The notes beneath the pieces were generated by a model. The model did no database searches. It was given only the letters and a program-made list of their open reading frames with translations, and was not told the DNA's origin. The position numbers and the translations under genes were made by a program. Positions 472 to 58,915 of a stretch of DNA of 64,000 nt are shown here, piece after piece (the stretch's first letter is position 1; the number at the start of each line of letters is the position of its first letter). The stretch lies in contig CM030845.1 of assembly GCA_018105865.1 (NCBI GenBank), positions 16,452,276 through 16,516,275 of the forward strand, read 5' to 3'. Origin of the DNA: Metaphire vulgaris (lineage: Eukaryota > Annelida > Clitellata > Crassiclitellata > Megascolecidae).

Positions 472-792
472 AAAACACAGAGCTACAATTAACGCCGAAA
501 TTTGCCGAAGTTCAAGAGGGAGACATCTTTCAATTGACCTGCAAAACCTATTATAAGGATGAAGCAATCAGATGGCAACGCATTCCAATGGAAAACACTT
601 TACCAGTTGATGTGTATCTAGATGACCAACTGGTCAATGACTATGATACTCGGTATGAGGTTAGAAAGGAAGTAGAAGCTGGGATCAATAAACTCATTAT
701 TAAAAGAGCGGAAATGAGAGACTCGGGGACATTCCGCTGCATCGACAGATCAGGTCATGGACAGCAGGTGGACTCTCTGCTAACAGCTGTCG
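472..792 (+). CDS. Receptor A exon: V-set-like immunoglobulin domain
   Basis: One internal exon encoding a complete Ig-fold domain of about 107 residues. The acceptor reads TTGCATTTTAG and the donor TCG|GTAAGT; both junctions are phase 1, as is usual for Ig-domain exons. The hallmark residues are visible: first cysteine in FQLTC, core tryptophan in IRWQRI, and the terminal DSGTFRC motif that places the second cysteine. The next exon, at 1152, is phase-compatible. The domain is extracellular and would serve in binding; the ligand is unknown. It resembles the V domain of receptor C in layout (IEW, then DTGTFRC). No signal peptide exon was found for A in the window. The assignment as an Ig exon is secure; the gene identity is not known. 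Confidence 0.85.
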
Positions 793-1151
793 GTAAGTAC
801 ACTTTTCTAGTATTTCGAATGGTTCTCACGTTTAAACTGAAAAATTGGATGAACTTTATACACGGATAAGTAATGAAGCAAATCCTTTAATAAAACTTAT
901 TTGTTAATAAAACATATTTGGCTTTCCATTAACAATGGCATTAACTACAACTATGGACGAAGTCTCAAATACTTCAATTGATTGAATTATAATAATTTTA
1001 CCATTCTCGCCTCTTTTTCAAAAAAGATTATTTACAAAGTTCCATTGGAAATCTCATATTTGCTGAGATTTAACGTCTCAATATGATATTTTGATTAATA
1101 TTGTGTCTCATTATGGAAGCTAATGAACTACAATTGTCTGGCTATTTATAG

Positions 1152-1436
1152 GGCCCCCTAAGTGTCATTCGTCCATTAACGCGTCATGTGATTTGGACGA
1201 CATGGAAAACGTTACCTTGACCTGTAATGTGAAATTTTCTGGAAAAATTAGTCCCACCATCGAGTGGAAACATGAAGGGGAAAAGATGTTGGGTGCAACC
1301 TCCACTTTTTCAGCCGATGTTCAGTCTTACCTGACAATCCAAATCGATCAAGGAAGTTCTTATTCGTCACCCTACAGTTGCTTGTCCTTAACATCCAATT
1401 CATCATGTACCATTAAAATTCAGCATGACTGTACAG
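1152..1436 (+). CDS. Receptor A exon: second immunoglobulin domain
   Basis: Splice-flanked exon (acceptor GGCTATTTATAG, donor ACAG|GTATGT), phase 1 at both ends, so it joins in frame to the exon at 472-792. It encodes about 95 residues with the Ig pattern: cysteine in VTLTC, tryptophan in TIEWKHEG, second cysteine in SPYSCLS. Four extra cysteines (PKC, ASC, SSC, HDC) sit near the edges and could form additional disulfides. The segment TIEWKH is also found in the V domain of receptor C, which supports common descent. It ends just before a 7 kb intron full of transposons. Ig fold is confident; C2 or I set cannot be decided by eye. Confidence 0.82.
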
Positions 1437-1534
1437 GTATGTAATGTAAGATTTGAAATGTTAAGATTTCTAATGCATGATTTCTAAGGTAAACAAATAA
1501 TAATATGAACTACCTGTTTCAATACTCCATTCAG

Positions 1535-1735
1535 TCTCGTTTAGATACTTTATCAAAAGCTTTATCAAAATCTAAGTATATTATATCGACTGCCTTGCCC
1601 TCATCTAGGTCATCATAAATCTCCTCCATACAGTCTAACATGTTGGTCAGGCATGACCGTCTCTTTGAAAATCCATGCTGACTGTCATTGACAATTTTTA
1701 ACCATTCTCACAATTATTGTCACAGCTCCCTTAAC
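1535..1735 (-). mobile_element. CR1-like LINE reverse-transcriptase fragment
   Basis: On the minus strand this encodes RT motif A context (SCLTNMLDCMEE, then DEGKAVDIIYLDFDKAFDKV). It is the same family as the plus-strand CR1-like element at 41300-44381, where the matching segment reads SCLTNLLDFLEE. Both ends are truncated. It lies in the large intron of receptor A. Confidence 0.75.
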
Positions 1736-2119
1736 TCTAACGCCTACAACGCAGGTCATTTGGCTCGTGACCTCATACCCCACTCCTTGCGTTAATTCGT
1801 TAGGAGTAAACGTGTGTGACTGTGTGTGGGTGAATAAAGTGTTGGAACGAAATACGTTTACACATTGCAGATAAAAATCAGTTTCCCAATAAACATTATG
1901 AGGAAACCTTAAAGTAAGTGTACGTTTTTGTCCTAAGTCTTAGAAGTCATGGAATGAAGACATCCTAAGAGAAATCTCGGATAGATTCACAGCAGTCCAC
2001 TTCCGATATCGCAGATTTATCATGCAATTAAATATGCTGAACAACTAGCGACAATTTTCATAGTCTCGCTCACACAGTCATAGAACTACACGGTGGATCT
2101 TCAAGAGGGTGCTGCGAAC
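1736..2119. other. Intronic stretch without recognised features
   Basis: Nothing coding was recognised. A short segment around 1740-1850 contains an imperfect GTGTGTGACTGTGTGTGG run only. Confidence 0.3.
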
Positions 2120-2415
2120 CAGAGGCGTAGCGAAGGGGGTAGGTGTGGGCATATGCCCCGGCGCCGAGGTGAGGGGGCGCCAAAATCGGGTTTTTGGGGT
2201 AAGCTAAACAATCAAATGCATAATATAATAAGAAAGAAGAAAGAAGCGCGGCGACCTTTTTGCTCGTCAGGAGTATAAGGAGAGAGGTGCCATAGAGAGT
2301 TGAGGGGAGGGGCAGCGAGAGAATGATGTGATTACCTTTTTTGCTCGTCAGCAGTGTTGGGGGCGCCAACGGTGCACTTTGCCCCCGGGTGCCGGATACC
2401 CTCGCTACGCCTCTG
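2120..2415. mobile_element. hAT-type MITE with 8-bp target duplication
   Basis: Terminal inverted repeats CAGAGGCGTAGCGAAGG and CCTCGCTACGCCTCTG bound a 296-bp element. Flanks are CTGCGAAC (2112-2119) and CTGCCAAC (2416-2423), an 8-bp duplication with one mismatch, the hAT signature. The interior carries GGCGACCTTTTTGCTCGTCAG, a motif that recurs in related MITEs at 45617 and 48001. No transposase. Confidence 0.8.
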
Positions 2416-2423
2416 CTGCCAAC

Positions 2424-3037
2424 CCGCACAAGTTGAAATAGTTCGACGTTGTGACAAGCCATTTCACAGATCAGTGGAGGCCCGAGCCATTTGCAAATCT
2501 TAGATCCCTCAGTATCCCAACTCTTAATATGAATCTAGAGCCTTAAGTGTGTGTGTTGTGTTTGTTTATAGACGCGTCCGTATAAAAGACGATGGACGTC
2601 TATGTGTGCTTGTAGGTGTGTTTAGCTCCTCCTTTCTCAACCAGGGCTTGCCACCGGCTATGGCGGAGTTAGCCTTAAGAGAATTACAAAGATTTACAAA
2701 GAAATTATTTACATGCCTATATGTCCATTATTTCGAGGCCCCATTTTAAGCAGAGCTGCGGGCCAAGTGGGTTTCCTGTCCCCTCGAGTAGCGCCTGCGT
2801 GGTCGAGTATTCAGCCAGCGGATGAATCTACAGCAATGAAATAGGAGAAATAGGCGAAGACAAACACAAACCTACTTCTCAAATGATAAAAACGAAGCAT
2901 TCATTTGCGATCGATAGGCCTAGTTGCGCTGCAGCGTGGCGATGTTCGAAGTTTCAATAAAGCAGAACCAAGGACTTCTTAGCATTAACAAGAGATACAT
3001 AATTAGAAAATACATCCAAGAACCAATGTGCTAGAAT
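2424..3037. other. Unassigned intronic DNA
   Basis: No convincing exon or repeat boundary. Short open frames here lack splice context and hallmark motifs. Confidence 0.3.
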
Positions 3038-3364
3038 CAGCGCCTGCACCAGAGTATTTGGCGCCTTAGGCGAACTTGTCGCACTGCACCCCCACCCCCG
3101 CCAATCAGTTTAAAATGTTCTCAAACAGTTATAAAGTTTTTAAAAATGTAGAAAAATGTACATGAAGGGCGTAAAAAAGTGATGATGACCTTTTTCTGCT
3201 TGTGCACCAAACGGACCTGAAAACCACTGATTCAATCCATTTATTACTAAAGGGAGGAATTTGTTAATATTTATTTTGTTGCATTTCTTTCGTTGCCGCC
3301 CCACAGAATTTTGCCGCTCTAGACGCCGCTTACTGTAGATCGCCCAGTGGTTAAACCGGCCCTG
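3038..3364. mobile_element. hAT-type MITE with TSD GCTAGAAT
   Basis: The left end starts CAGCGCCTGCACCAG and the right end, read inward, starts CAGGGCCGGTTTAACC, a widespread hAT terminus. GCTAGAAT is present exactly on both sides (3030-3037 and 3365-3372). Length is 327 bp, with no transposase. The inverted ends match only partly, so the left end has decayed. Confidence 0.8.
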
Positions 3365-3372
3365 GCTAGAAT

Positions 3373-4079
3373 ATCGTTCGATGGCATTCGAAATCGATCC
3401 CAGCAGGCAACGACGCGAAATTATGTGAATTTCTCAAGCGATTAAACTGATGAAATGGAGTAATTAATCATCCGCGGTTTTAAATAACAAAGCAAAGTAA
3501 TAGTTGGCATCAGGACAATGTCCGCAGCGTTAAGTTAACGTTGCTTCCGGCCAGAACATGTAGTTTTCTTTCACAGCAAAGATATCTGGCAAGGCTCCGA
3601 TAACACATTCTCGTGAATAAATTAATCCGCATCGAAGAAACGAGGACCAGGCATACACAAATGGACTTTGTAGCAGCAGCAGCAGCGATTCATCTGATAT
3701 TATTCTGTGCAATTCAAGAGCTGCCTTCCTCAGTCATAAACTGTTTGAACATTACTACATTGCCAAAATCATGAATAGGCCTGCTGACATTAATGATAGT
3801 TCTGTCCTCTGCCGCTGAAGATATCGTAACTACAGTAAGTCATGATAGGCCTGTGGACTTCCTACAAACATTTCGGTTCAATGCGATAACGCATAGAAGC
3901 ATAGAAAACGTATAACGTGGTCGCAGTGTCTTTCTGTTTTGAAATTATGACGAATCTGTCTCTTTAACTTCATTGGTAGAGTTGTAAATGAACTTGGAAT
4001 GACGTCCTCCATTGTGCGTGACTGTTCCGTAATCGAATATATTGTTCTTTTGTCTTTCTTCCTGATATTCTTTGTTTGG
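3373..4079. other. Unassigned intronic DNA
   Basis: No gene seen. A CAGCAGCAGCAG run at 3670-3690 is the only simple repeat. Confidence 0.3.
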
Positions 4080-4178
4080 GTTGGAGTATAGTTGAGATGT
4101 TAAAGCGCTTTTGTTGTGGGCCGCAGCCTTGTTACAGCGCTATAGAAATTGTCCACGAATGAATGAATGAATGAATTC
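4080..4178 (+). mobile_element. LINE 3' end with (GAAT)n tail
   Basis: The segment TTACAGCGCTATAGAAATTG followed by a GAATGAATGAATGAAT tail resembles the 3' ends of L2/CR1-type LINEs, where a microsatellite replaces poly(A). A near-identical motif (AGCGCTATATAAATTG) precedes the (AAT)n run at 8068. Only the tail is present. Confidence 0.5.
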
Positions 4179-4180
4179 TT

Positions 4181-6118
4181 CCCTCAATTACTGTTCTGAG
4201 TAATGATTCTCCTCTTAGTACATTTCCAATCCAGTTCCTGTATTTTTTCATGGTGCTGATTAGCGATCTTTGTTCGTCCACCATCTGTAGTAGCCTACTT
4301 CATCGTTTGTTTTCTTGTCCGTCCACGCGATAATTTTCATTCTTCTCCACATCCACATTTCGAATGTTTCCAGCTTTTATATGTCCTTCTTTTGGAGAGT
4401 CTATGCTTCTGAGGCATATAAAGTGACACTCCATATCAACGTCTTTATCAGTCTCTTCTTTAGTTTCCTGATTAGCCCTCCTCTTACCAGTTATCTTCTG
4501 TCCAAAAGGCTCGTTTTCCCATCGCTATTCTTCTCTTTATCTCCTCCTTGCATCTGCAGTTTTCTATTATTGGGTTCCCCAGGTAGCAAGCTTTTGATTC
4601 AGTCTGGCAAGATGGACTGTGGCAAGCAATGAGAAATTTCGGAATTGAAGAAAAATTAATAAACCTAATACGAACAGTGTATAGAAAAGCAGAAAACGCA
4701 GTGAGGGTGGAACATGAACTAACAGAATGGTTAAAGACAAAAGTAGGAACAAGACAGGGATGTATTCTTTCGCCAATGCTGTTTATCATAATTCTTGAGA
4801 CCATATACAAAATAGCAACCAAAGACTTAAACATTGGTGTAAAGTGTTATGGAGAAAATATTTCTAATTTAAAGTTTGCAGATGATGTCACCTTGCTTGC
4901 AGAATTCAGGAAAGATCTACAAAAACTGACAGACAAAGTCAATGTCACGAGCCAAAGATTCGGCCTTACGATAAACGCAGCAAAAACTAAAACTAGGGTG
5001 GTCAGCAAAACAGGAGAAAAGAAGATGCGATTAACTCTAGAAAGTACAGAAATTGAACAAGTCAAAAGCTTTACATATGTAGGAGGACAAATAACAGGCA
5101 ATGGAAGCCACCAAGAAGACATCAAACAGAGAGTAGCAAAAGTATTACAAACAATGGGAAGACTGAAACGCATCTGGAACTCTAAAGAAATTAAAATAAG
5201 CACCAAAGTCCAAATCTATAATACCGTTGTCATTCCACAAATACTATATGGATCTGAAACCTGGGTCATAAAAAGAGAAGATGAAAAAAGACAACTCTTT
5301 GCAGAAATGAGCTGCCTAAGAAGAAATCTTGGAGGGAGTTAACAGACTTCAAAAACTTAGAAATGAAAATATACGGCAGCGGATTGGATTAAAGAATACC
5401 ATCATGGACAAACTCAGAAAAAATAGGCTTAGGGCCTACATGGTATGGACATGTAAACAGGATGGAAGACTCGAGACTTCCCAAAAAAGCATTCTACACA
5501 TACAAGAAAGGTAAAAATGGAAGAGGCAGGCCAAGAACAAAATGGATAGACAACATAAAAGAAGATTTTAAAGAAAGACAACTGACAATTGCAGAAGGAG
5601 GATAATTAACATTTGACAAAAAGGCCTGGAAATGTTTTCTGACTAGCTATTGCCACTAATGAGTTGGCAGAGAGTAATTATGATGATGGTGATGATGAAG
5701 GTAGCAGAATTGTGTCACATGTTCCAGTTCTGTTCCATCAACCGTTATGGTGAATCTAGGTGGATTTTTACTTTTTGTTATTACCTTGATTTGTGCATGC
5801 TTTTAGGGTGTTTATTTTCATGCCATATTCTTTTGATGTTGTATTTAGCTTTCTTCATTCTTCTTTGCAGTTCTCTTTTACTTCCTGCTAGCATCGCTTG
5901 ATCGTCTGCAAAACGTATGGCTTGTATCAATTTTCCTCCAATGTTTATTTCCGCTCTTTCTTCCTATCTAGTGACTCTCTAATAAGTTCCTCAATGTAGA
6001 TGTTGAATAGCAGCGGTGATAGTGGGCAGCCTTGTCGTGATCTCCTTCCGATTTCTCCGGTCTTCGAGTTATCATTCCCAATCCGTATTTAGGTTCAATC
6101 TTTCCAATATTGCGTCAA
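4181..6118 (-). mobile_element. RTE-like LINE fragment (minus strand), split by a second RTE
   Basis: The minus strand carries reverse-transcriptase motifs in order from 6060 downward: RQGCPLSPLLFNIYIEELI, FADDQAML (the catalytic FADD box), then YLGNPIIENCRCKEEIKRR and RRIAMGKRAF, and at 4200-4450 a tail with WSVTLYA-, WRRM- and WTDK-type motifs. A plus-strand RTE insertion at 4589-5698 interrupts the frame between GTELEHVTQFC and YLGNPI; reading across the gap is continuous once one target copy is removed. The copy has many stops and is a fossil. Its 5' part is missing, apparently cut by the hAT fossil at 6129. Confidence 0.8.
4589..5698 (+). mobile_element. 5'-truncated RTE-like LINE with TSD AGGTAGCA
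   Basis: Reverse transcriptase from motif A onward: QAFDSVWQDGLWQAM, TRQGCILSPMLF, FADDVTLLAE (catalytic box), then SFTYVGGQITG and VIPQILYGSETW. After a frameshift near 5335 the C-terminal portion follows (MEDSRLPKKAFYTYKKGK, GRGRPRTKWIDNIKEDF). It ends in a (GAT)n-type tail, TATGATGATGGTGATGATGA. AGGTAGCA flanks both sides (4581-4588 and 5699-5706). Fragments of the same family occur at 29120-29384, and a related 3' end at 15740-16250. It is inactive through truncation and frameshift. Confidence 0.85.
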
Positions 6119-6128
6119 AGTATTATAT

Positions 6129-6790
6129 CAAAGGTGTCAATACTTTTTGGGCGGCGGGCCAAATGACGTGTCTCCCATGTCCTCGCGTGCCAAATGCAAA
6201 ATTGCTTGTCTATATTATTCCAAAATCTAAACTTTCTAAAAAATCTAAAGTAAAATTACGAAAACCTGAAAGGCCATTCAATCGTTACATCGATTAAAAC
6301 CTATTGTGGCAACTATGACAAACCGTATTCTAGTTTGGTCTAATAGAAAGAGTTAAATTTCAGAATGTTTTTACGGTGAATATAAAATTGAAAGCAAATA
6401 AAGTTAGATGACAGTCGATGTAGACATGGAAGCTGAGAAGACATGGCGTTGTTTATTTTTTCGCTAGTTTAGCAACATCTGACTTTAATTCCGCAGCCAA
6501 AGCCACTCTCAAATGTGCCTGTAAATTTCCTTTGGACAGACGTCATCTCAGTTTTGCCTTTAGTAGAGTGATTTTGGAAAACTCTTGCTCACATAAAGTG
6601 AGTGCTGGTCAAAATAGAACAGCAAAACACAGGATCTTCGATTCTACATCAAACCAATTTTTCAAACGAAAAAGATTCTACATCAAATCAATTCACGCAT
6701 AGACATGTAGCAACACATTTTGAAACGTAGATACTGTCGCGGGTCAACTAAATGCAGCCCGCGGGCCATATGATCCCAATTGTCAGGCAT
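6129..6790. mobile_element. hAT fossil with decayed transposase segment
   Basis: The ends resemble the common hAT pattern (left GGTGTCAATACTTTTTGGGC with GGCGGGCC; right GCAGCCCGCGGGCC followed by ATTGTCAGG). On the minus strand near 6445-6600 it encodes LCEQEFSKITLLKAKL, a stop, RLSKGNLQAHLRVALAAELK, which matches the C-terminal region of Buster/Charlie-type hAT transposases. Exact ends and a clean target duplication could not be fixed. Confidence 0.6.
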
Positions 6791-6838
6791 TCTATGGGCC
6801 TATCTATGGCTGCCTTGCATGCGTTTGTGCATGACACG

Positions 6839-7280
6839 CAAGCCTCGCAAGGTTGCCAGTGTGGGTTTTTTCTACCCAATCTGGTTTTTTGGGCCTCGTC
6901 TGGTTATTTGGTATTTTTTGGCGGAATCTGTTTTTTTTAAATCTGCGAAAATTAAAAAAATTGCCTAATTTATGCAGTGAAAGCGAGAAAATTAGGAGTT
7001 TTTAGTTTTCAGCATGTTGAAAAACTCGTTTTTGCTTGCTGAAAAAGTGTACAAGCTTAAAGTTTACCTCTTTACCTTGCTTGAAGATGACGAGACGACC
7101 TCTTTTTGTTTGTCAAGACTTTTTGGAGACGTCGTACTACGAAATTTTCCCAAGAATTTTCAGATTTGTCCAAAATTTTATGAATTTTATCATCGTTTCG
7201 ACCTTTTTGCGAACCTGGTTTTTTCTGGTTTTTTTAAAGGCACGATCTGGTTTTTTTCAAAATGTTCACTGGCAACACTG
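6839..7280. mobile_element. hAT-type MITE with TSD ATGACACG
   Basis: ATGACACG occurs exactly at 6831-6838 and 7281-7288. The right end read inward starts CAGTGTTGCCAGTGAAC; the left end has GGTTGCCAGTGTGGG after a short insertion. The interior is rich in CTGGTTTTTT blocks that also form inverted pairs. No transposase. Confidence 0.72.
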
Positions 7281-7288
7281 ATGACACG

Positions 7289-8180
<892 letters not shown>

Positions 8181-8447
8181 CTAGACCTACCTAGGGAAGA
8201 ATACACAACTTAGGTACAGTCGAGGCTAAATGAATGGATGTAACATTCGGCTTAAGTCTACGACGGTCGAATTTCTTTGGCGCATATTTTCTGAAAAATG
8301 TCCGTATTCCGTCGAAATATTTCTGACAGCCATAGGAGAATAGGTGTTGCGTACAGTCACCTAATATGCCATTATCTTTTAACTCGTGTTTTTAGTGTAT
8401 TGATCAGCTATTTCTGTTTTAGAATTTGGTTTCGTATTTAGTTTCAG

Positions 8448-8594
8448 GTGAATCAACCGTAGCACCGATGACTGGTCCTGCAACATCAGGTGGTCATGTA
8501 GGCTTAATCGTGGGCATATTGTCTGCTATCGTTTTCATCATCATCATCATCATCATCGCCGTCATCATCGCTTTCGTCGTCTGGCGCCGACGCA
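8448..8594 (+). CDS. Receptor A exon: stalk, transmembrane helix, RRR stop-transfer
   Basis: Acceptor TAGTTTCAG and donor CGCA|GTAAGG, phase 1 at both ends, so it can follow the Ig exon at 1152-1436. It encodes a short Thr/Pro/Gly stalk (ESTVAPMTGPATSGG), a hydrophobic helix of about 28 residues containing seven successive isoleucines, then the basic stop-transfer sequence WRRR. The poly-isoleucine is encoded by an uninterrupted (ATC)7 microsatellite. If the donor is not used, translation stops three codons later (SKE, stop). This makes receptor A a type I single-pass membrane protein. No charged residue lies within the membrane span. Confidence 0.8.
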
Positions 8595-12409: not shown

Positions 12410-13810
12410 CAGAGATGTCCATGGTTCGGTTTTCTGAAACAAGACCCAAATGAAATTGATGTCTGGTGACCCAGTCCGACGTAAACGTGAAAGTACAATT
12501 GTACTTTTTACAACCTACATATATGCTTACAAAAATGATCAAATCGATGTCTTAATAAACGATGGAATCTGGGCTAGCGTGGGTCTACATGTCGCCATGA
12601 GGTGCATGCAGTCTGCAATATATGCCACAATATAAGGATCTGTGGCTACGCTCAAAGCAGTATACAGAAAACGTACGGTATATTTATTTAACGTGGTTAA
12701 CAAGTATTTATTTATTTATTTATTTATTGAAAGTTAAGATTTTTGTGGTAAATCGTCCTAGAAGGACTACTCGAACACATTACATTGTACATGAATAATA
12801 GGCCTATAGGTCAGGATCTAACAGAATAGCTGATCTCGAACAGCCAAGTCTTCAGTCGCTTCTTAAATATGTCAAGAGAAGTTGATGTTTGGACAGAAAT
12901 GGGAAGACGATTCCAGGCTTTCGCTGCAGTAACCGGGAAGGCACGGTCGCCGGCAGTGGCAAGGCGTGTGCGCGGCACGAGGAGTGCTTCAGTGGAGCCA
13001 GATCGCAGACGCCTTCTACTGTCTGTGTCAGCCGATCTCTGGAGTTCGCACCGGAGATAGGAGGGACCGATGTCGTGCAGGCACCGATAGACGAGGGTTG
13101 CCAACTTATACGTTATTCGCTCGGGGACCGAGAGCCAGTGTAGGTCGATCAACAGTGGCGTGATGTGGTCATACTTCCTTGATTGATGGATCAGGCGTGC
13201 AGCCGCATGAAGTACGCTCTGGAGTCTGTCGAGGAGGTGTTTCGGGAGCCCTGCTAAGGTGGCATTGCCGTAGTCAAGTTTAGAGATTACTAAGGCACTG
13301 ATCAAAGTCTTCAGGGCATTCAGAGATACATATTTTCGTATGCTGCGAATTAACCGCAGTGCTGCAAAGCAGCTGGCGACAGTGCGTGTCACGTGTTGCC
13401 TCGTCGTGGCGGTATTATCGATATAGATGCCGAGATTTCTGACATAGGGGCTTGGATGGATATCGTGACCATTGATCCGGACCGAAGTGGATTGGAGCAG
13501 GTGCTGCTGTCTTCCGGTTGCCATCCATACGATTTCTGTCTTCGCAGTATTGAGCTGGAGACGATTTGAGCCTAGCCATTCTGTCATTTCTGCGACACAG
13601 TTCGTAATTCGTGATTGGAGTTGTTGGGTTAGAGCTGAGTGACAACTCCCATATACTTGGGTATCATCTGCATATAGGTGTGCCTGCAGATCATGCTTGT
13701 GAGCTATGTCGAGTTTTATGAGTATTGACTCATAAAACCCAACCCATTAATTTTTTCAAAATCTGGACCCAATCCAATCCATGAGTCAACCCAATATATG
13801 GACAAGTCTG
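12410..13810. mobile_element. hAT-type element (CAGAGATGTCC ends) hosting an L2-like LINE
   Basis: The left end CAGAGATGTCCATGG and right end, read inward, CAGACTTGTCCATATATTGG match the termini of the small element at 27596-27816. Flanks CCCTAAAC and ACCTAAGC agree at 6 of 8 bases, compatible with an old duplication. The interior near 13735-13800 has the ACCCAATCCAATCC repeats typical of this family. Most of its length is the LINE at 12700-13735. Confidence 0.5.
12700..13735 (-). mobile_element. L2-like LINE, 3' half of reverse transcriptase
   Basis: The minus strand reads HLYADDTQVYG (YADD catalytic box) at about 13690, then MTEWLGSNRLQLNTAKTEI, VRNLGIYIDN, ALVISKLDYGNATLAGLP, ITPLLIDLHWLSVPERITYK and the C-terminal LPISVQTSTSLDIFKKRLK. 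These are thumb and C-terminal motifs of L2-type LINEs. The main frame is open for about 258 codons, so the copy is relatively young, but it is 5' truncated just before the catalytic box. The 3' end is a (TTTA)n run at 12708-12727. The closest relative in the window is at 56790-58020. Confidence 0.85.
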
Positions 13811-14924: not shown

Positions 14925-15661
14925 TTACATCGTATCGCCTCCTAGTGTTACGTTTTCGTATGACTGTGGCTGTGTCATGTTCATTTCTTTTATTTTATCT
15001 TTGCTGTTTTCGTCTTCATTCAATTCTTCTGTTGAGTTGTCTTCTATTCCTATTTCTGTGTTTTCGTAGGATTGCTTTGTAGTATTTATTTTTACGTTAG
15101 TCATATTACCCAGTTGCATATCCTTTTCTTTTCTTTCATCGTGTTCTTCGTTTTCCAGTTCGACGTTTTCGTAAGACTGCGCTGTTAAATTATCATTCGA
15201 TGAAGCTGAGTTGAAGGTAACGTTACTTCGGCCAATAGCGACATTCGTATAAGCCGGACGTCTTGTCTGATGCTCTGCCTCGATGTCTTCCTGTCCGTCT
15301 GAATCGTGTATTGATACTTCGGCGTTAACCAGGCGATGTTCCAGAGATCCAATATCATCTGAATCCATTTCATTTCCCCGCTGTCTGATCCTAGTTTCGT
15401 CGTCAACATCGACATTGATGTAAGGAGGAGGACGCCTTAGTGATTGACCCTCAGATGAAGTACCGCCGACTGATTGTCCCTGTGCATCAGTCAGCCTCAG
15501 GTAGGTGGTCTGTGTTGAAGTCTGATTAATGTTCTGGCGTGCGATCATTTCTTCGTATCCTGGTCTCATGACTATCACTTCTTCCTCTTGAGCTCTTTCA
15601 CTCGAAGTGCTCTGACTAGAGTTCGCCATGTTGGTGTCTTGAAAGCCGCGTAGGTCGTAAT
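14925..15661 (-). CDS. Receptor B exon: long cytoplasmic tail with tyrosine motifs
   Basis: Terminal exon: acceptor CTTATTCTCAG, phase 1, matching the donor of the transmembrane exon at 16350. It encodes 244 residues and a stop. The sequence is acidic, low in hydrophobics and without predicted fold, as expected of a signalling tail. Eight tyrosines are spaced along it: YDLR, YEEM (a PI3-kinase SH2-type YxxM), TTYLRL (YxxL), PPPYINV, AYTNV, SYENV, SYENT and SYENV. Five of these are YxN, the consensus for Grb2-type SH2 domains, and PYINV, AYTNV and SYENV also fit a loose ITIM-like YxxV. A proline run (RRPPPY) precedes one site. Phosphorylation and partners are inferred from the motifs, not shown. 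Confidence 0.8.
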
Positions 15662-16349: not shown

Positions 16350-16477
16350 CTTCACTCTTCTTTTTTCGAAACGCCAACACCACAAGAACAGTGATTTGCA
16401 CGAAAATGACAAATGAGATGGAGATAGAAACAATTCCACCAACTCCAATTCTGACCGCCGTATCTTCATCATCACCA
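16350..16477 (-). CDS. Receptor B exon: transmembrane helix
   Basis: Acceptor ACATTTATTTCAG and donor GAAG|GTATTG, phase 1 at both ends. It encodes an acidic juxtamembrane segment (GDDEDTAVRIG), a hydrophobic span (VGGIVSISISFVIFVQIT, continuing VLVVLAF) and the basic stop-transfer RKKKSE. It joins in frame upstream to the Ig exon at 16920 and downstream to the tyrosine-rich tail at 15661. The single-pass type I topology follows from this order. One glutamine lies in the membrane span; there is no acidic or basic residue there. Confidence 0.8.
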
Positions 16478-16919
16478 TCTGAAATAAATGTATATCAAGA
16501 TATAATTACTTCAACCTATTGACTTCTATGTTCCAATTTTCTTTATATCATATCACAACTTTTCCTTTTCCAACATTACTTCGACTGTGTTTGTCTGGTT
16601 TTCCTACTTCAACAACATTATCGCTGTTTAGATATTAATCAAATGGATTTTGGATCACGTTCTAACCGTTTACATGTAGCTGTTTGGCTAGCCATGGAAT
16701 GTGCCATCTATTTCTATTGTGGCCCTGTGTATTTACTGCATAGTAGAAGTTTATATGCGCAGAAAATGAATTGTCTTTAACGGACATTTATTTCATTTTG
16801 ATAATCATTTCATTTATTTGAATGAATTGCAAGAAGTTTTAGGATAATTTTTCGTTAGTAGAACTGAAATATTTTAGTATCAATGCATATATTTGCAAAT
16901 TTCATTTACCACTTCTTTC
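16478..16919. other. Receptor B intron
   Basis: AT-rich intron between the second Ig exon and the transmembrane exon. No repeat recognised. Confidence 0.5.
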
Positions 16920-17302
16920 TGTCGTGAGATAAGATTGATCCAGTTGAAAACTATACGAACTGGTGATAGGCGAACTGGTTAAGGAACCATGTTCGCAAGT
17001 TACATTGTCATAATAGATTGGAATGTTGTCTACAACTTGTAGACTTTTTTTGAAGCTATGCATTTTTTTAAAGTATACTTGGCATACAGAGACGGATGTG
17101 CTTGAGTACAAGAGATTGTCAGGAGTTGAAACCACAATTAATTTGTATCGAAACAATTCTCTGGAAGAACGGCCCTTTTCTGATGTTACACGTATTCCAG
17201 TGTCTACTCGAATAAGTTCCAAAACAGGATCCGAATTTCCATTATATATTATTTCACATGATAGGTCAGATGAATTTTTTCGTAAGATTCGAGGACTGTC
17301 AT
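16920..17302 (-). CDS. Receptor B exon: second Ig-like domain lacking the core tryptophan
   Basis: Acceptor AATTGTTTTTAG and donor AGTG|GTAAAT, phase 1 at both ends; encodes about 127 residues. The first cysteine is in SDLSCEIIYNG and the second in SVSVCQVYF. At the place of the usual core tryptophan the sequence is LELIRVD. A membrane-proximal segment (NIPIYYDNVTCEHGS) follows the fold. The matching exon of receptor D (56145-56519) has the same start (SP.I...NSS..SCE), the same lack of tryptophan (QLVLTES) and the same NIPIY.D.VT.E stretch, so the two are paralogous. Several NxS/T sites suggest glycosylation. Confidence 0.78.
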
Positions 17303-18614: not shown

Positions 18615-18932
18615 CGAATACAATCACTTCAGCTCTCTGTTTTATAAAGTTTTTGTCAGTGATAACCATGCAGCCATAAACTCCGGCGTCGCTCAATTGA
18701 ACAGAGTCAATCGTTAATACTGTGCAGAAATTGAAGAATTCAACCGAGGCTCTTTTCTTGTTCTGTGGATCCAATATTACACGATCTGAATTAACAAGAG
18801 TGTATTCTGTAGTGTTGTTCACTTCGAAGAAATGCCAACTGTGGAACCTTGATGACAGATTTAGCTGACACTGCTGAGTCAACTTCTGGCCTTTTCTAAG
18901 CGCAACGTTTTCCAGCGCCGAGATACAGGAAA
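18615..18932 (-). CDS. Receptor B exon: V-set-like immunoglobulin domain
   Basis: Acceptor TTACGTTTCAG, donor ATTCG|GTGAGG, phase 1 at both ends, about 106 residues. Hallmarks: cysteine in LTQQCQLN, tryptophan in HSWHFF, and DAGVYGC before the second cysteine. The opening ENVALRKGQKLTQQC closely matches HNVALRNGQQLRLQC of the receptor D exon at 58592-58915. The next exon in the minus direction (17302) is phase-compatible. The signal-peptide exon must lie further upstream on the minus strand and was not found. Confidence 0.84.
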
Positions 18933-41299: not shown

Positions 41300-42476
41300 G
41301 ATTTGGAGAGGGAGATAACAGGAAAAGACACAGAGGAAGGCTGGAGTATATTTACCAAATGTATGTCCAAAGTCATAGAATTGACCATACCCAAACAGAA
41401 GAAAATTAATAACAAATTTCCTTAGATAACAAGAGAAGTGCAACGAAAAAGAAGGGCGAAAAACAAAGCGTGGAGGAAACTAAGTAAACACAGATTGGCA
41501 AGTAAAGGAAATGAGCAGAATCAGCACAGACTCAAGATCTTGTAGGAGCAGTATACCAAGAAAAGAAAAGCGTCAGCAGTTACTAACAAAATGGCTATTG
41601 CAAATTTTGAATGCAGGTTGGCAAAAAATATAAAACAGCACAGTAAAAGTTTCTACAAATATTGTAATAGAAAGTTGGACAGCGCAGGATGTGCAATAAC
41701 AGACGATGTAGAAACTGCACAGATTCTAAATAACTATTTTGTTCAGTATTTACAGAGGAAAATACAAATACTATGCCAGAAGCCAAAATTGTGTTCGATG
41801 GAAACGAAGAAGAAATGCTAACAGATATAGTGTGTACAAAATAATGTGTTATCAAGGTTTTGACCAATTTAAAGACAGACAAGAGTCCAGTATTAGATGG
41901 CTTACATCCAAAGTTTCTTTACGAAGTTCGAAATGAAATAGGACATGCAATTGCTTTGATAATCAATGAATCACTCAGAACTGGAGTAGTACCGCAAGAC
42001 TGGAGAGACGCATTAGTCAGCCCACTGTTCAAGAAGGGAAAACGAAGTGAACCAAGCAATTACAGACCAGTGAGCCTAACTTCTGTAATTTGTAAAGTTA
42101 TGGAAAAAATACCGAAAGAGAGCATTTTGAAACATTTGACTAGGCATAAAATTGTTAAAGATAGTCAGCACAGATTTACAAAGGGGCGTTCATGCCTGAC
42201 CAACCTGTTGGACTTTCTGGAGGAGGTTTTTGATAAACTAGATGAGGGCAAGGCAGTAGATATAATATATTTAGATTTTGCCAAAGCTTTTGATAAAGTG
42301 CTCCACATAAGGCTGGCTGCCAAACTGAAGTCCTGTGGAATAAGGGGGAATATTCTCAGATGGATTGAAAATTGGTTGAAGGGAAGACGACAGAAGGTTG
42401 GCATTAGGGGAGGCCATTCGGAATGGACAAGAGTTATTAGTGGAGTGCCTCAGGGCTCAGTGCTTGGGCCATTGAT

Positions 42477-42523
<47 letters not shown>

Positions 42524-43643
42524 CACCGATGAAAGATTACTGTCCAAAATTTCAGAGTTTGCGGATGATACAAAGATATGCAGAAATATAGACTCGGAGG
42601 ATGATGCTAAAATGTTACAGAAGGATCTAAGAAAATTGCTTCAGTGGTCTGTGGACAGGCAGATGCTTTTCAATATCGCTAAATGTTCTGTAATGCTAAT
42701 TGGAAAATCTAATAATGGTAATGAATATTCATTAGAGGGAAGGTTCTAACCACAACAGAAAAAGGCTTGGGAGTAATCATCCATAAAAGTATGAATCCAT
42801 CTCACCAATGCATGGAGGCAGCAAAGCAGGGTAACCAAATGTTGGGAATGATGAAAAAGACAATATTGAATCGAGACAAAGATATAATCATAAAACTTTA
42901 TAAGTCATTAGTAAGGCCACATCTAGAACTGTGTTCAGGCATGAAATCCATTCTTGAAAAAAGATATAGAACTTTTAGAAAAAGTGCAAAGACGAGCAAC
43001 GAAGATGATCAATGGATGCCATAATTTAAGCTACGAAAAAGACTTCAATATTGTGGATTGACAACATTAGAAAGGAGAAGAGAGAGAGGGGATTTGATAG
43101 AAACATACAAAATAATGACGTGGAAAGTAGATTTTCCATACGATCGATTCTTTACATTGGCACACTATAGCAGCACAAGAGGCCACAAATGCAAATTGTT
43201 TAAGCAGAGGGTGGGTCCAAGAAAGAAATTTCTTTAGATGGACAAATGGACAGTGATGTTAACAAGGACCGACCCCCCAAGGACGAGGATAAGGACGAGG
43301 ACCGACTCCCCAAGGACGAGGATAAGGACAAGGACCGAACCCCCAAGGACGAGGATAAGGACGAGGACTGACCCTCCAAGGACGAGGACAAGGACGAGGA
43401 CTTACCTTTCAAGCACAAGGACCACAAGGACTGACCCCCAAGGACAAGGATCGAGGACAAGGACAAGGACCAATCTCTGTCGGACAAATAGGAAAAAACC
43501 AAACACAATTTCAATTCGAATCACAAAATTAGAAAAGCAATTTTTAAAAAAAACATAATGTAGTCAACAGCAATGCTGCATTTCAAATGCGCCTTTGACT
43601 TTAGCCAGCTAGCTATGTTACTGCGCTTAAGAAATCGTCAAGT

Positions 43644-46089: not shown

Positions 46090-46159
46090 ATGCTTCGTCA
46101 TCGCGTCCTATCATTTGCGCTATGGACAACGGCAGTCTGCATACTCTACTGCGCAGTTG
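46090..46159 (+). CDS. Receptor C exon 1: signal peptide
   Basis: ATG followed by 22 codons with the pattern of a signal peptide: MLRHRVLSFALWTTAVCILY, then CAV. The basic n-region and hydrophobic core are clear. It ends at donor GTTG|GTAATT in phase 1, exactly what the Ig exon at 47121 needs; the junction codon becomes GAT (Asp). Exon lengths of the four receptor C exons (70, 327, 147, 173) sum to 717, a multiple of three ending at a stop, which supports the model. The start is the first ATG of the frame. A second signal-like ATG at 46281 has a phase-0 donor and does not fit. Confidence 0.65.
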
Positions 46160-47120: not shown

Positions 47121-47447
47121 ATTTGAATGAATCAACGATTGTTGTTCGCCCCGAAAATCAGTGTGCAATTGTTGGAGAAACAATTCAATTTAACTGCTCA
47201 ACAGATAGAAGAGGCAGTGATACGATTGAATGGAAACACATGGCTCTAAATGGCTCGGAGTTTGAATTCGTCTACTCATTGGGTTTTGTAAGCAATAGTT
47301 TTAAGCGATTTAACGTAAACGTCACTGCTGAAACTGGATCCTACAACCTCATCATTAGCAAAGTTATGTCTGAGGATACAGGAACATTCCGATGCAAGGA
47401 AAAGGACTCTTCAACAGAATTCAAAGACGCTCTTCTCATAGTCAGGG
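47121..47447 (+). CDS. Receptor C exon 2: V-set-like immunoglobulin domain
   Basis: Acceptor TTTTGCTCTGTAG and donor AGGG|GTAAAG, phase 1 at both ends; 109 codons. Hallmarks: cysteine in IQFNC, tryptophan in DTIEWKHM, SYNLIISKVMSEDTGTFRC with the second cysteine. Three NxS/T sites (NESTI, NCSTD, NGSEF, NVTAE region) suggest N-glycosylation. It is the only Ig domain of receptor C; no second Ig exon is visible before the transmembrane exon at 48392. The strand order and the TFRC ending resemble receptor A. Confidence 0.85.
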
Positions 47448-48391: not shown

Positions 48392-48538
48392 GTTCGGTTG
48401 ACTGCAATGGCAGAGAAATGGCAGTTAAGCAAGACTCAGAAAGATGCACGAACGAAAACTCAATTCTAGGAATTACCGCAACAATCCTTGCTATCAACGT
48501 CGTTTTCGTCTCCTTCCATTTCTGGAATTATTTTCAAG
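48392..48538 (+). CDS. Receptor C exon 3: stalk and transmembrane helix
   Basis: Acceptor GTGCTTTTCAG and donor CAAG|GTAAGT, phase 1 at both ends. Encodes a stalk with two cysteines (SVDCNGREMAVKQDSERC) and a hydrophobic span (ILGITATILAINVVFVSFHF, then WNYF). The span has an asparagine and a histidine but no charged lysine or arginine. The stop-transfer sequence is provided by the basic start of the next exon (GECKEKK). Two stalk cysteines could support dimers. Confidence 0.75.
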
Positions 48539-48589
48539 GTAAGTCAAATGCAGGCGCCTGATTAGCTACCGTCAATGCAACTGATATCG

Positions 48590-48985
48590 GTCTACTTGCA
48601 AGCGTTGTGCGATCGGTTCCCGTCAGAACACCGAAGTTAAGCAACGTCGAGCGCGGTTGGTACTTGGATGGGTGACCATCCTGGGATCTAGTCGTGGTGC
48701 CGGCGGCCAACCAAGCCGTTCATCGCTTAGGCGTCGATAAATTGGTAGCAGCGTTAATCTGCGAAGGTAAAACGCAGGTCTAAAGAAAGCAATGGCAAAC
48801 TGGCATTAGCCACCTGCGTCGCTCCTTGCCTAGTACACGGCGCCAGATCCTACGCTCGTTCGAGTACGGGATTACCTTTACATTTAATGTATCTGTAGAG
48901 TGTAGACGTACTCTACCACGTCTAGCCTTAAAGGCTAGTCTTAGCGAACTTGTGGGAATGGTTCCTAGACTTTTAAGTAAGTAAA
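48590..48985 (+). ncRNA. 5S rRNA-derived SINE
   Basis: The head (48590-48708) matches 5S rRNA: CACCGAAGTTAAGCAACGTC and TACTTGGATGGGTGACCATC, which include the A-block and C-block of the internal pol III promoter, then CCTGGGATCTAGTCGTGGTG. It is followed by about 270 bp of unrelated body, so it is a SINE3-type retroposon and not a functional 5S gene. It ends near a TAAGTAAGTAAATAAA run. It lies in intron 3 of receptor C, in sense orientation. Confidence 0.75.
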
Positions 48986-49677: not shown

Positions 49678-49850
49678 GAGAATGTAAGGAGAAGAAGACA
49701 CTGGAAGAGAAAAGCTCTAAATCAGAACAAGAAAAAGACACCGGAAGAGAAAAGATTGAATCAGAAGAAGAAGAAGACACCGGAAGAGAAAAGATTGGAT
49801 CAGTAGAAGAAGAAGAAAAAGGAAGCTTGAAATCAAACAACAGAAATTAA
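49678..49850 (+). CDS. Receptor C exon 4: acidic cytoplasmic tail
   Basis: Acceptor CTTAAATGCTAG opens a phase-1 frame that runs 57 codons to TAA at 49848. It begins basic (GECKEKK), then carries three units of a repeat: EQEKDTGREKIESEEEE, DTGREKIGSVEEEEKGS and a degenerate first unit (LEEKSSKS). No tyrosine is present, so it differs from the B and D tails. A second acceptor 32 bp upstream (ACATTTGCAG) would give EKMCCS and a stop, so the choice of acceptor decides the tail. Function of the Glu/Lys-rich tail is unknown. Confidence 0.55.
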
Positions 49851-53040: not shown

Positions 53041-53964
53041 TCTGTGTGTCTCTCTTTCGTGGGTTATTTGAATCTACTCGAGCCTCACTCCTTGTTCTCG
53101 CACTCAATTCATTGCGAAGATTAATCTCTCATTTTTGTATCAATTCATTTTCTCTGAATATAAATATATAGGCCTAAGAGACACTATATAAGTCCCCTAT
53201 TACATTACACTGCAATAATTTTATTTATTCGAAACAACTTCTACAGCGCCGTGGATTAGCGAAGGCCAAAGTGAAAAGCACTGTCGACAAAATCACATTT
53301 CATTTAGGAACGGAAGATGTTGGTCGTCTTGGAAATCCGCTCAGATGGTTCGAAGGAAGGATGGCTCGCTGCCGTGACGCCATCCATCGGTGAATTCTTG
53401 AGAAAGTGGTCTTCTCCAAGAAAATCTTTCCGGCAAATTGACTCGTCAATGCAATGAAAGTTCTTGCTCACTTGTTCTCACTTTTATTACTCACAAAAGC
53501 ATAATGCATGATAAGCTGTCGTTGCTTGATCATTCCAGTGTGTTGATATCTTCTTCTTGATTTCCGATTTTTTTATCTGTCGCCAGACTCGCCACCATCT
53601 TTTAGAACTGCTCTGTAGACTAACTTCTTGAAGTTTCATTGCAAAGCTTAATGTGGTAATTAGTGTTAGCGCATTAAGTTGAAATCATCAAGGACTTAGA
53701 CGAGTAAAAGAAATTGATTCTAGGACTTTTCTTGGTAAAACAAATAAATTAAAGTCCTGCTCTTGGAAACAATAATAATGATAATGTTGACTATCTGCTA
53801 TGATTTTAGGCGTTAAGTATATTGTGTTCAATGTTTAATAATGTTCCATCGCCATAGAGCTCGACATATTGACATGGTCTAGATGTCTTTCCTTCTTCCG
53901 TCTTCTCTAGAGTCACACTTTCATACGAATGTCTGCTTGACCTTCTCCCTGGAATTGCCATTCT
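53041..53964. other. Unassigned interval
   Basis: No gene supported. 53240-53470 contains a TACAGCGCCGTGG segment that may be a LINE tail. Confidence 0.3.
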
Positions 53965-54628: not shown

Positions 54629-54807
54629 CTACTTATTCCTTGTGTTCAAAGAGTTCTCAAAACATGCAAAGACTGGAGTTTCCACTTCACGTTCCCTGTC
54701 ATCGTAAGATTCGTATCGAGTTCTCAATTCTACCGTCTCAAAGGCCTTTCTGTTTCTGGCTGAACGCTGTTGAGTGATAACCAGATTGCGAGAAATACGA
54801 TCGGCCG
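54629..54807 (-). CDS. Receptor D exon: cytoplasmic tail
   Basis: Acceptor TGTGCTTTCAG, phase 1, compatible with the donor of the transmembrane exon at 55330. Encodes 58 residues and a stop: DRISRNLVITQQRSARNRKA, FETVELRTRYESYDDRERE, then a short end (FACFENSLNTRNK). Tyrosines are in RYESYDD; neither is a perfect ITIM or YxN. The tail is rich in Arg and Glu. An internal weak donor (GAAC|GTGAAG) in phase 1 could link to further exons such as 53965-54077 or 51527-51664. Confidence 0.6.
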
Positions 54808-55329: not shown

Positions 55330-55485
55330 CTTTCCGTTTTCTCTTGGAACAAAGTTTCCAAATGACAACAACTATTAAGAGCACAGCGGCGGCGGCGGTT
55401 GTAGGAACCGCAAGCTTTACAGCGAGGATAGAGTTGGTTGATTTCAATGCTTGCGTCTCACTTTCTGTTACTTTTATTGCAGTGG
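55330..55485 (-). CDS. Receptor D exon: stalk and transmembrane helix
   Basis: Acceptor CTGTATTTCAG and donor AAAG|GTAAAG, phase 1 at both ends. Encodes TAIKVTESETQALKSTNSIL (stalk), the hydrophobic span LAVPTTAAAAVLLIVVVIW and the basic stop-transfer KLCSKRKRK. A GCC run in the span gives four alanines. It joins in frame to the Ig exon at 56145-56519 and the tail exon at 54807. The span has no charged residue. Confidence 0.8.
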
Positions 55486-56144: not shown

Positions 56145-56519
56145 TAGAATTTTCGCTTGTCATTTCTGTCACGTTCTGTTGGTCCCAGGTGATGATGTTA
56201 GATACATTTGATTCCAAAGTAACGGAGTCTTCATATATGGGAATATTAGGCGCCATGTGTTCGTGTGAGAAGTTCCGACTTGTAAAACGCAGATGACATC
56301 TGTAAATCGCTTTGCTGAACTCAACTGAACTGATTTCCAAATGGACGGTGATTTTGCGACTGTCATTTGACAATACCCTGTAGCGTTGTTCGCTCTTCAC
56401 TGCGATGATTTCACCAAATTCTGATTCAGTCAGCACTAGCTGAGGTTCCCACGGTCCATTGAAACGAACTTCACAGGAGATGTGGGAAGAATTCCTATTG
56501 TATATTTTAGGACTTCCAT
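56145..56519 (-). CDS. Receptor D exon: second Ig-like domain lacking the core tryptophan
   Basis: Acceptor ACGTCACTTAG and donor TCTA|GTAAGA, phase 1 at both ends; about 125 residues. First cysteine in SSHISCEVRFNG, second in AIYRCHLRF. The expected tryptophan position reads PQLVLTESEFG. The segment NIPIYEDSVTLESN matches NIPIYYDNVTCEHG of the receptor B exon at 16920-17302, and both start D-(G/D)SP-I. If the donor is ignored the frame continues to a stop at 56077. Six NxS/T sites suggest heavy glycosylation. Confidence 0.8.
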
Positions 56520-56789
56520 CTAAGTGACGAATAGGCGAAAGCATAATTATATACAAGACAACATCAATTGATATGTTAAAATCAATGCTTACATCAGTCA
56601 ATGAATAGCAAGACAAACAGATTACAAGTTAATGCTTACAGCATCACAAACAATTAAATGGTATGGCTAAAGATAGAGTGATTGAACTTGTATGCCCTTC
56701 GAGTATTAATTAACTCATTAATGCATGACTTTTCAAAACTCGGAGAAACTCTCAGGGATTACTGACAATATGACATGATTCTGATATAA

Positions 56790-58020
56790 AGTAAGTAAGT
56801 AAAGTCAAGATTAATGTGGTGACTAGTCGACAGACTGCGCGAACACATTACATAACTAAGTAACTAAATACAGTAACTAGTTCTGAATAGCCAGGACTTG
56901 AGGCGCTTCTTGAATGTGTCGAGTGATGGAGACTCCTGGATGTCAGCAGGAAGCTAGTTCCAAGCGCGCGCAGCAGCTACCGGAAAAGTTCGATCACCGA
57001 CAGTGACGAGACGCGTCCTAGGGACAATCAGTTCAGCCGTGGTAGAGGATCTTAGTCTTCTTCTACGGCCTTCGAGATCCGAGACGCTGCGCAACTCGGT
57101 CGCCAGATAGTTCGGTCCTGTTCCGTGCAGGCAACGATAAACGAGACTTGATAGTTTAAACTTAATGCGCTCTGACACGGACAGCCAGTGTAGATCGATA
57201 AGTAGCGGAGTGACGTGCTCGCAACACGCAGACCGATGAATTAGGCGAGCAGCCCCATTCAGGACTGACTGCAGCCTGCAGAGTAGAGAGGCAGGCGATC
57301 CAGCGAGGACGGCATTTCTATAGTCTAGTCTGGTGAGGACTAGAGCTACGACCAGCGTCTTGAGGACGGCTTGAGAGACTGATCGACGTAGACTCTTGAT
57401 CAGCCGGAGAGAGGCGAAGCAGCTTGCAACGGTCTTAGCTGCATGCAGCTTCATCGTCGCTGCACTGTCGAGATAGATGCCCAAGTTCCGTACGGATGTG
57501 ACTGGACGTAGCTCGAGATCGTTAATCCTGATACAGGAACGCGGCAGCTGTTGTTGATTCCGGTCAGTGGCGAGCCAGAGGACCTCGGTCTTGGCGACAT
57601 TGAGCTGAAGCCTGTTAGACTTCAGCCAGTCTGCCATCTCATCCAGACACCGAGTAAGATGCTCAAGCAGTTGCTGCGTCTCCGAGGGCCAGCAGCCTCC
57701 ATATATCTGGGTGTCATCCGCATACAAGTGTCCTTGGAGCCCATGTTGACAGATGAGACGTAACAGGTCAGTCACGTATAGGGTAAACAGGATGGGTCCA
57801 AGAACAGATCCTTGCGGGACACCGCAGATAACGTGGGATGGGTGAGTGCTGGAGTTGGAACAACGCACGCATTGTGTACGGCGATCGAGATACGAATGGA
57901 ACCATTTAAGGGCCACATGACCAATGCCGTACGAGACATTAAGTCGACGCAGTAGTATCGAGTGATCCACCGTGTCGAAAGCGGCCGTAAGATCGAGAAG
58001 AACGAAAACAGCCAGCTTAC
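56790..58020 (-). mobile_element. L2-like LINE with near-intact reverse transcriptase
   Basis: Minus strand, from 58018: FVLLDLTAAFDTVDHSILLR (motif A), VICGVPQGSVLGPILFTLYV, HLYADDTQIYG (catalytic YADD), WLKSNRLQLNVAKTEV, VRNLGIYLDSAATMK, HVTPLLIDLHWLSVSERIK and the C-terminus LPADIQESPSLDTFKKRLK. One premature stop (ARAWN, stop, LPAD) at about 56956 separates the last block. The 5' end is truncated exactly at motif A. The 3' tail is (TTAC)n. It lies in the intron between the two Ig exons of receptor D, in the same orientation. Confidence 0.88.
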
Positions 58021-58141
58021 CTTACTCTGATATGTAAAGAGTGTTTAGAAAAATCTTGTATATTTTTCAAATAATGGATGTTTTTAAGTGCGTCCCATAT
58101 TAGGGACGCTATGAAGTATTGAGGTGTTACATCAACAGTTA

Positions 58142-58503
58142 AGGGCTATCTACAAATGACGTAACGCACTTAGGCGGGGGGTTCAAACATTTGTGACGAC
58201 GTGTGACGACGGGGAGTTGCGGAAATGTGACGTCACTTAATACTAATTTTTTAGGTGGCGACCTTTTTTGCCTGTCAAAATTTTTCCAAAGACGAGTCGA
58301 GGGGTAACGCGTTGTTACGTCATATTTGAGGGGATCTGACTTTTTGTGACCTCTCGTCTCGTCTTTTGAAAATCTTGACAAGCAAAAAAGAGGTCGCCAC
58401 CTAAAAAATTAGCATCATGTGACGTCACATTTCCGAAAATCCCCGTCGTCACAAATGTTTGAAATCCCACCCTAAGTGCGTCACGTCATTTGTGGATGGC
58501 CCC
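58142..58503. mobile_element. PIF/Harbinger-like MITE, copy 5
   Basis: Ends GGGCTATCTACAAATGACG and, inverted, GGGGCCATCCACAAATGACG, flanked by TTA on both sides. It is nearly a full palindrome: the GACGTCAC-rich halves pair with each other, including AGGTGGCGACCTTTTTTGC and its complement at the centre (58253-58405). It lies in the receptor D intron, 90 bp from the V exon. Confidence 0.75.
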
Positions 58504-58591
58504 TTAGGCAGGACAGGTGCAACAGCAACTGAAGGGTCCCTGGGTTAAAACCTTTCCAAAGCCCCATTTTGTAACCGAGTGCGCCACTCAC

Positions 58592-58915
58592 CCATTATTA
58601 TGACCTGCGCTCTTCTATGCATAATGCCTGAAATCCCCTTTGTCTTGCATCCGTACGTCCCAGCGTCATCCAGTCGTACATGATGAATGATCAGCGCATG
58701 TGACCCATTTGCCTGAATGACTTCGGCTCTTGAACTGAATTCAGGAGAGAGATTGCCCGATCCGCTGTAGATCAGCTGTTTCCTGTCGCTATCGACGCGG
58801 ATGTAAACCCACTCAACAAATGGAAATACAGACGCTGAATCTTCCGCTGGACACTGCAGTCTCAACTGCTGACCGTTGCGTAGGGCAACATTGTGTAACA
58901 GTGGGAGTGTTGAAC
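58592..58915 (-). CDS. Receptor D exon: V-set-like immunoglobulin domain
   Basis: Acceptor TCCTTTTTAAG and donor ATGG|GTGAGT, phase 1 at both ends; about 107 residues. Hallmarks: cysteine in LRLQCPAED, tryptophan in PFVEWVYI, and LDDAGTYGC before the second cysteine. HNVALRNGQQLRLQC parallels ENVALRKGQKLTQQC of receptor B, which shows they are duplicates. It would be followed by the exon at 56519. The signal peptide exon must lie at higher coordinates and was not identified. Confidence 0.85.

Follow-up and report, generated by a model that had tools for sequence, protein, structure and literature searches.

In the annelid Metaphire vulgaris, a stretch of 64,000 nucleotides on contig CM030845.1 (C14:16452276-16516275; hereafter the window) contains four clustered, diverging immunoglobulin (Ig) receptor genes with a signalling tail, A and C on the plus strand and B and D on the minus strand, and these genes are part of a larger locus. 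On balance, their sequences favour a clustered, polymorphic, paired-type immune-receptor locus in which the tail common to B and a further gene, E, may dock Grb2. The anatomy of the genes, a mosaic of ectodomain and tail cassettes, a conserved array of YxN motifs, differences between two copies of the locus and, in one of these copies, a stretch of D that resembles E are read directly from the DNA. The cluster extends over ~200 kb and includes four A-type genes and E as a third gene of B/D type, giving three convergent A/B-like pairs (A-type/E, A/B and C/D). Left of the window, where C14 was read as far as 16426000 and additionally over 16337000-16346999, E lies on the minus strand with a V-type (V) exon at 16434190-16434504, a second Ig exon (Ig2) and a tail at 16427385-16428116, and the plus strand carries a C-like signal exon (~16437688) and a V exon, G1 (16444029). 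Exon coordinates of A to D are window positions.

The cytoplasmic tail of B (14925-15661, minus strand) has 244 residues and eight tyrosines. Five YxN motifs are present (3 of 20000 shuffles), four of which read YxN[VI] (0 of 20000), together with six Yxx[VILM] motifs (11 of 20000). The tails of B and E contain YEEM, TTYLRL, YINV, YTNV, YENV, YENT and YENV; all seven are kept in the copies of B and E on a second contig, C95, and are visible also in the alignment of C14 E. The three QSYEN repeats within the B tail differ at silent positions only, and the ratio of non-synonymous to synonymous substitution rates (dN/dS) of the tail is 0.32-0.67 in all six comparisons of B and E copies. The YENV tyrosine of CD22 binds Grb2 (PMC6286995). 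A search of the assembly (728303522 bases in 246 contigs) with the tail, in which all 15 candidates were scored, returned B and E, the C95 counterpart of each and a further two distant relatives, which contain stops and lie at 7.64 and 7.65 Mb of C14, six matches in total. No invertebrate Ig receptor with a YxN array turned up among the accessible parts of open-licence papers retrieved with narrow search terms.

E is a mosaic by sequence, a D-type ectodomain joined to a B-type transmembrane segment and tail. Compared with D on C14, its protein is 60% identical in the V domain and 80% in Ig2 (91% in DNA), and compared with B, it is 76% identical in the transmembrane segment and 91% in the tail on C95, and 93% in the tail on C14. 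Synonymous divergence (dS) between the B and E tails is 0.058-0.095, against 0.073-0.097 between two copies of one gene; between E and D it is 0.66 for V and 0.16 for Ig2. These contrasts show that the cassettes for ectodomain and tail differ in their history. With its D-type ectodomain and B-type tail, E makes with D a couple resembling paired receptors, that is, linked genes with similar ectodomains and different tails, as far as gene structure can indicate.

The second Ig-like exon of D (56145-56519, minus strand) provides a further indication of exchange between these genes. Sites were counted at which the two E copies have one base in common and C14 D has another. Within this exon the C95 copy of D sides with E at 21 such sites and with D at 5, whereas in the flanks it sides with E at 2 and with D at 61, four more sites matching neither; the flank count mainly shows that the gene is D, because the flanks of D and E hardly align. 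Over the exon, C95 D is 96.1% identical to C95 E and 92.5% identical to its own C14 counterpart. Conversion from E fits this E-like tract best and is its probable origin.

C95 (200000 bases, 2500 of them N) was reversed and compared with C14 16430000-16525999. The two are collinear, with chain blocks of at least 400 bases 87-98% identical, and on C95 the genes E, G1/A, B, C and D keep both their order and their strands, with more A-type copies upstream; for ~18 kb of the window (26-44.5 kb) there is no C95 counterpart among such blocks. C95 is most likely, from this correspondence, the other haplotype of the locus. In A, B, C and D, every signal, Ig and transmembrane exon compared has an open reading frame on C14 and C95 alike, and V exons are 87-98% identical in protein between the copies. 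Mismatches amount to 4.65% of 5307 aligned exon bases and 2.90% of 47326 aligned non-coding bases, in a comparison that covers 53385 of 96000 bases and so favours conserved non-coding stretches. In 500-base exon flanks the figure is 3.74% (the rates being rounded and some flanks containing parts of neighbouring exons). The transmembrane exons of A (20.5%) and C (10.6%) have the highest mismatch, with 1.6% in B and 1.3% in D. G1 has a dN/dS of 2.1 between the copies, and the V exons of A and D (A1 and D1) show 5 and 6 amino-acid changes, respectively, and no silent change. The exon differences fit weak constraint or diversification, diversification being unproven.

Two further differences between the copies were noted. 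In the membrane span of A, where 132 of 147 bases could be aligned for the 20.5% mismatch, runs of ATC/GTC vary in length and make-up, and the span looks as if built by repeat slippage. On C95 (reversed coordinates 106432-106854), the Ig2 exon of E is enlarged by an internal duplication of ~21-23 codons, in frame, which C14 lacks.

From these features we infer an immune role, phosphorylation of the tail and adaptor docking, as well as the haplotype status of the copies. B and E each have two outer domains, the first V-set and the second Ig-like, followed by a membrane span and a long tail. In the proposed working, binding of ligand by the outer domains would lead to phosphorylation of tail tyrosines, and the five phosphorylated YxN sites would dock a Grb2-like SH2 adaptor, YEEM and TTYLRL being further possible docking sites. 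D and E might read similar ligands and give different outputs, since D has an E-type ectodomain without the tail of E. The A-type genes (probably two V domains and one Ig domain) and C (one V domain) are the convergent partners, and could act as co-receptors, ligands or decoys; their tails are tyrosine-free in C and not found in A. Duplication and the swapping of cassettes for ectodomain and tail would generate the diversity, probably together with gene conversion.

Several points weigh against this interpretation. The tail motif was chosen, and its test made, after the tail had been viewed, and none of the B/E tail tyrosines forms a canonical immunoreceptor tyrosine-based inhibitory motif (ITIM), as defined by I/V/L/S at -2. 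The second Ig domain gave no confident predicted fold (pLDDT, the predicted local distance difference test, of 42.5). Only 11 of 22 exons differ between the copies more than their own flanks do, the exon mismatch falls to 4.25% without the triplet-built transmembrane exon of A, and the pooled ectodomain ratio of non-synonymous to synonymous differences per site (pN/pS) is 0.67 (10 exons), with single-exon values of 0.20 (E1), 0.38 (C1), 0.43 (B2), 0.45 (E2), 0.57 (D2), 0.62 (B1) and 0.86 (A2), where 1 denotes the V exon and 2 the second Ig exon. This pooled ratio and the 11 exons that exceed their flanks suit weak constraint equally, as would be expected if the genes were lineage-specific cell-adhesion or neural Ig receptors, tandem duplicates with no immune or recognition role. 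The best solved-structure sequence matches of A, namely Robo (for which no single stretch passes alone), NCAM and DSCAM, point the same way. Cassette swapping, the E-like tract in D, the conserved YxN array and the large clustered V-set family argue against such receptors, which we regard as a less probable explanation than an immune-receptor locus and as the most serious of its competitors.

The remaining adverse points concern the integrity of the genes and of the second copy. Both D tail exons contain in-frame stops on C95, and the V exon of E has a GC rather than a GT donor on both contigs (C14 ~16434189); introns with a GC donor exist and are rare. C95 could be a recent duplication or an assembly artefact rather than a haplotype, and the tract in D could reflect a change of the C14 D exon from another source, or old alleles. 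Taken with the in-frame stop before the SYESVTLE of D, the two stop-bearing tail relatives at 7.64-7.65 Mb of C14 and the lack of a tail found for A, the stops in D and the donor of E would suit a partly decaying array, in which few genes work, C95 is an assembly artefact, and pseudogenisation has turned D, E or some of the tails into relics. Set against this, no stop interrupts the Ig, transmembrane and signal exons compared for A to D on either contig, AG and GT are present at the splice sites checked, and we consider decay on this scale unlikely.

An allorecognition locus comparable to Hydractinia Alr, which would tell self from non-self through polymorphic receptors that recognise their like on other cells, would account for exons that differ between the copies about as much as or more than non-coding DNA, for the probable gene conversion and for the clustered arrangement of V and second Ig domains, transmembrane segment and tail. 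With two copies only, and with differences as moderate as those of the V exons, it is somewhat more unlikely still. Least probable of the explanations weighed is that each convergent pair forms a receptor-ligand unit, the A/C type being a polymorphic ligand and the B/D/E type its receptor, with matched haplotypes re-sorted by conversion, which if true would be a new self-recognition system signalling via a Grb2-docking array.

The best-known examples of paired, shuffled Ig receptors are those of vertebrates. CD22/Siglec receptors are V-set-led, and the T-cell adaptor LAT has several YxN sites. The closest known paired-receptor system to which an immune-receptor locus of this kind can be likened is that of Xenopus XFL and the vertebrate FcR/KIR-like receptors (PMC2413239), from which it differs in its V-set outer domains, the Grb2-type YxN array, the lack of a canonical ITIM and the convergent pairs. 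CD22 is likewise an Ig receptor with a YENV Grb2 site in its tail (PMC6286995); the likeness is one of motif, and one YENV motif is named for CD22, against five YxN motifs and no canonical ITIM here. Among invertebrates, oyster CgIgIT2 is described as an Ig membrane receptor with a tyrosine-based tail and expression in haemolymph (PMC11999971). Compared by that description, it differs in having five Ig domains and an immunoreceptor tyrosine-based activation motif (ITAM), and cassette swapping and gene pairs are unmentioned in the portion of the source consulted. From the same partial source, and again by description, Hydractinia Alr resembles the present locus as a multi-gene cluster with V-set domains, to which the two-copy differences here may be added (PMC11999971). 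Alr proteins were absent from the Foldseek and VIA match lists, which carries no weight against kinship. A V-set of pIgR/CD300 type is suggested by pIgR being the best solved-structure sequence match both of D (3.3e-9) and of the V exon G1 (7.9e-9, where none of the single stretches passes alone), E-values that apply to a multi-domain chain; pIgR is also among the fold matches of the modelled V domain of D, and its gene structure and tail differ from those here. The locus thus combines a large clustered V-set family, ectodomain/tail mosaics, probable gene conversion and a tail of Grb2-docking type, and provides a concrete place for testing whether paired, shuffled Ig receptor systems arose more than once.

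The family to which these V exons belong is large. A genome-wide search with G1, in which 150 of 302 candidates were scored, found at least 144 V exons at E <=0.001 on 32 contigs, C95 counted; 74 of the 144 lie in 15 clusters of three or more, against 0.37 under random placement. The Pfam V-set model gave at least 145 matches genome-wide (150 of 811 candidates scored). On contig C37 (11526412-11646877), five G1-like V exons, 38-40% identical to G1, lie on one strand ~26-41 kb apart. Two V-set exons accompany the two stop-bearing distant relatives of the B tail at C14:7626034-7650602, so that C14 may have another locus of this type. Of seven pattern matches to relatives in viral contigs, none was confirmed. 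A search with COX1 gave a single short match (E 1.3e-6), interpreted as a fragment in nuclear DNA.

Kinship among the genes was examined by local alignment of exons, scored against 500 shuffles, and by a tree of 25 V exons, 17 from the cluster on both contigs and 8 from elsewhere in the genome. An earlier note on this DNA had grouped B with D and A with C. The first grouping is borne out: B, D and E form one clade (99/97), with z 26.4 for the V exons of B and D (B1-D1) and 14.7 for their second Ig exons (B2-D2). The second stands in part. A, G1 and C lie across a 94/92 branch from B/D/E, and the signal exon that probably belongs to A is 91% like that of C; the exact place of C is not fixed, though, the tree carries a long-branch warning, and C1 is equally near to D1 (z 15.4) as to A1 (15.5), the other V-exon pairs giving 6.3 (A1-D1), 5.1 (A1-B1) and 0.8 (B1-C1). 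A and C also differ in their domains, C having one Ig domain and A likely three. The segment IEWKH, cited as common to the two, is no evidence of their kinship, because it sits in different exons, the second Ig exon of A and the V exon of C. The proposal that an inverted A/B-type pair had been duplicated agrees with the three convergent A/B-like pairs. A recent block duplication giving A/B and C/D is rejected, since the window halves match each other at the DNA level only in repeat-like sequence. Clearly recent copying is that between A/B and the upstream A-type/E pair.

The gene models of the earlier note, A from 472 to 8594, B 18932-14925, C 46090 to ~49850 and D 58915-54629, hold as to position, and joining the exons of A, B, C and D confirmed that all junctions are phase 1. 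AG and GT flank each of the 11 internal exons of those models, AG precedes the terminal exons B4, C3 and D4, and the signal exons of C and D have a GT donor. None of the 17 exons listed for the four genes overlaps sequence repeated inside the window. The motifs NVALR.GQ.L...C, NIPIY.D.VT.E, SGTFRC/TGTFRC and IEWKH are all in the sequence. Pfam V-set, I-set or Ig_3 domains score above cut-off in A, C and D; the V-set score of B is 23.0, below the cut-off of 26, and the aligned C-W-C pattern and DAGVYGC are present nonetheless. Structure modelling predicts a V-type Ig fold, consistent with V-set membership.

Within the window, A (plus strand) comprises a V-type exon at 472-792 (the inner of the two V exons that the complete gene probably has), a second Ig exon at 1152-1436 (Ig_3; with IEWKH) and a transmembrane exon, mostly of ATC/GTC triplets, at 8448-8594; the searches made for a tail exon found none. 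A is likeliest a single gene starting outside the window, with signal, V (G1), V (A1), Ig (A2) and transmembrane exons, because G1 and A1 are both phase 1, the stretch between them gave the exon queries no match except a poly-isoleucine repeat, and C14 has further G1/A1 pairs at 16301167/16310054 and 16341946/16347416. A further A1-like exon at 16402999 has no G1 match.

B (minus strand) has, besides its tail, a V-type exon at 18615-18932, a second Ig-like exon at 16910-17302 and a transmembrane exon at 16350-16478. The second domain had been called tryptophan-less in both B and D, which is true of B; D has two tryptophans, neither aligned to a tryptophan in B. A candidate signal-peptide exon of B at 25592-25673 (minus strand) is the sole place in ~8 kb 5' of the V exon that gives a candidate on both contigs, and it is tentative because two overlapping reading frames are possible (the second to 25588). 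Another, near 19860, was rejected as being in the wrong phase.

C (plus strand) is made up of a signal-peptide exon at 46090-46159, a V-type exon (with IEWKH) at 47121-47447, a transmembrane exon at 48392-48538 and a charged tail exon without tyrosine at 49678-49850. The best acceptor of the tail is that at 49678, and a short tail with an early stop was rejected in its favour. The queries used found no second Ig exon, leaving C with one Ig domain.

In D (minus strand), a newly located signal-peptide exon at 62482-62545 precedes the V-type exon (58592-58915), the second Ig-like exon described above, a transmembrane exon (55330-55485) and a short tail exon with a stop (54629-54807), in which the other copy of the locus has an earlier in-frame stop. 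The span was checked for a charged residue of the kind that would pair with an ITAM adaptor, and has a lysine at its edge only. A further tail-like exon with SYESVTLE at 53806-53948 (minus strand) represents either a relic or an alternative end: its acceptor at 53948 is a weak one, and a reading that starts from the acceptor at 54077 meets an in-frame stop before it reaches SYESVTLE. The six-frame translation of the window has three occurrences of SYE[NS]V, two in the B tail and one in this exon, against 0.03 expected from 30 block shuffles.

In the stretches scanned for signal-like exons in phase 1, C and D each have one candidate, but the scan is weak by itself because the two strands of the window have 12 such donors, of which six fall, by position, in simple repeats. 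Support for the C and D exons comes from a D-like signal exon in E (73%, same donor) and from the C-like signal exon left of the window.

Fragments of retroelement reverse transcriptase or endonuclease lie at 4587-5342, 12811-13746 (a match under the Pfam cut-off), 30823-31266, 41845-42591 and 56954-58021, two of them within introns of A and D. A 5S ribosomal RNA-like sequence in an intron of C (48586-48705; Rfam, 40.3 bits against a cut-off of 38) is perhaps part of a short mobile repeat. Finally, when <=3 mismatches are allowed, 10 occurrences of a short ACCTTTTTTGCTTGTCA-like motif are spread over the two strands, for example at 2334, 45789, 58261 and 60940 (plus) and at 48087 and 58392 (minus), against none in one shuffled window.

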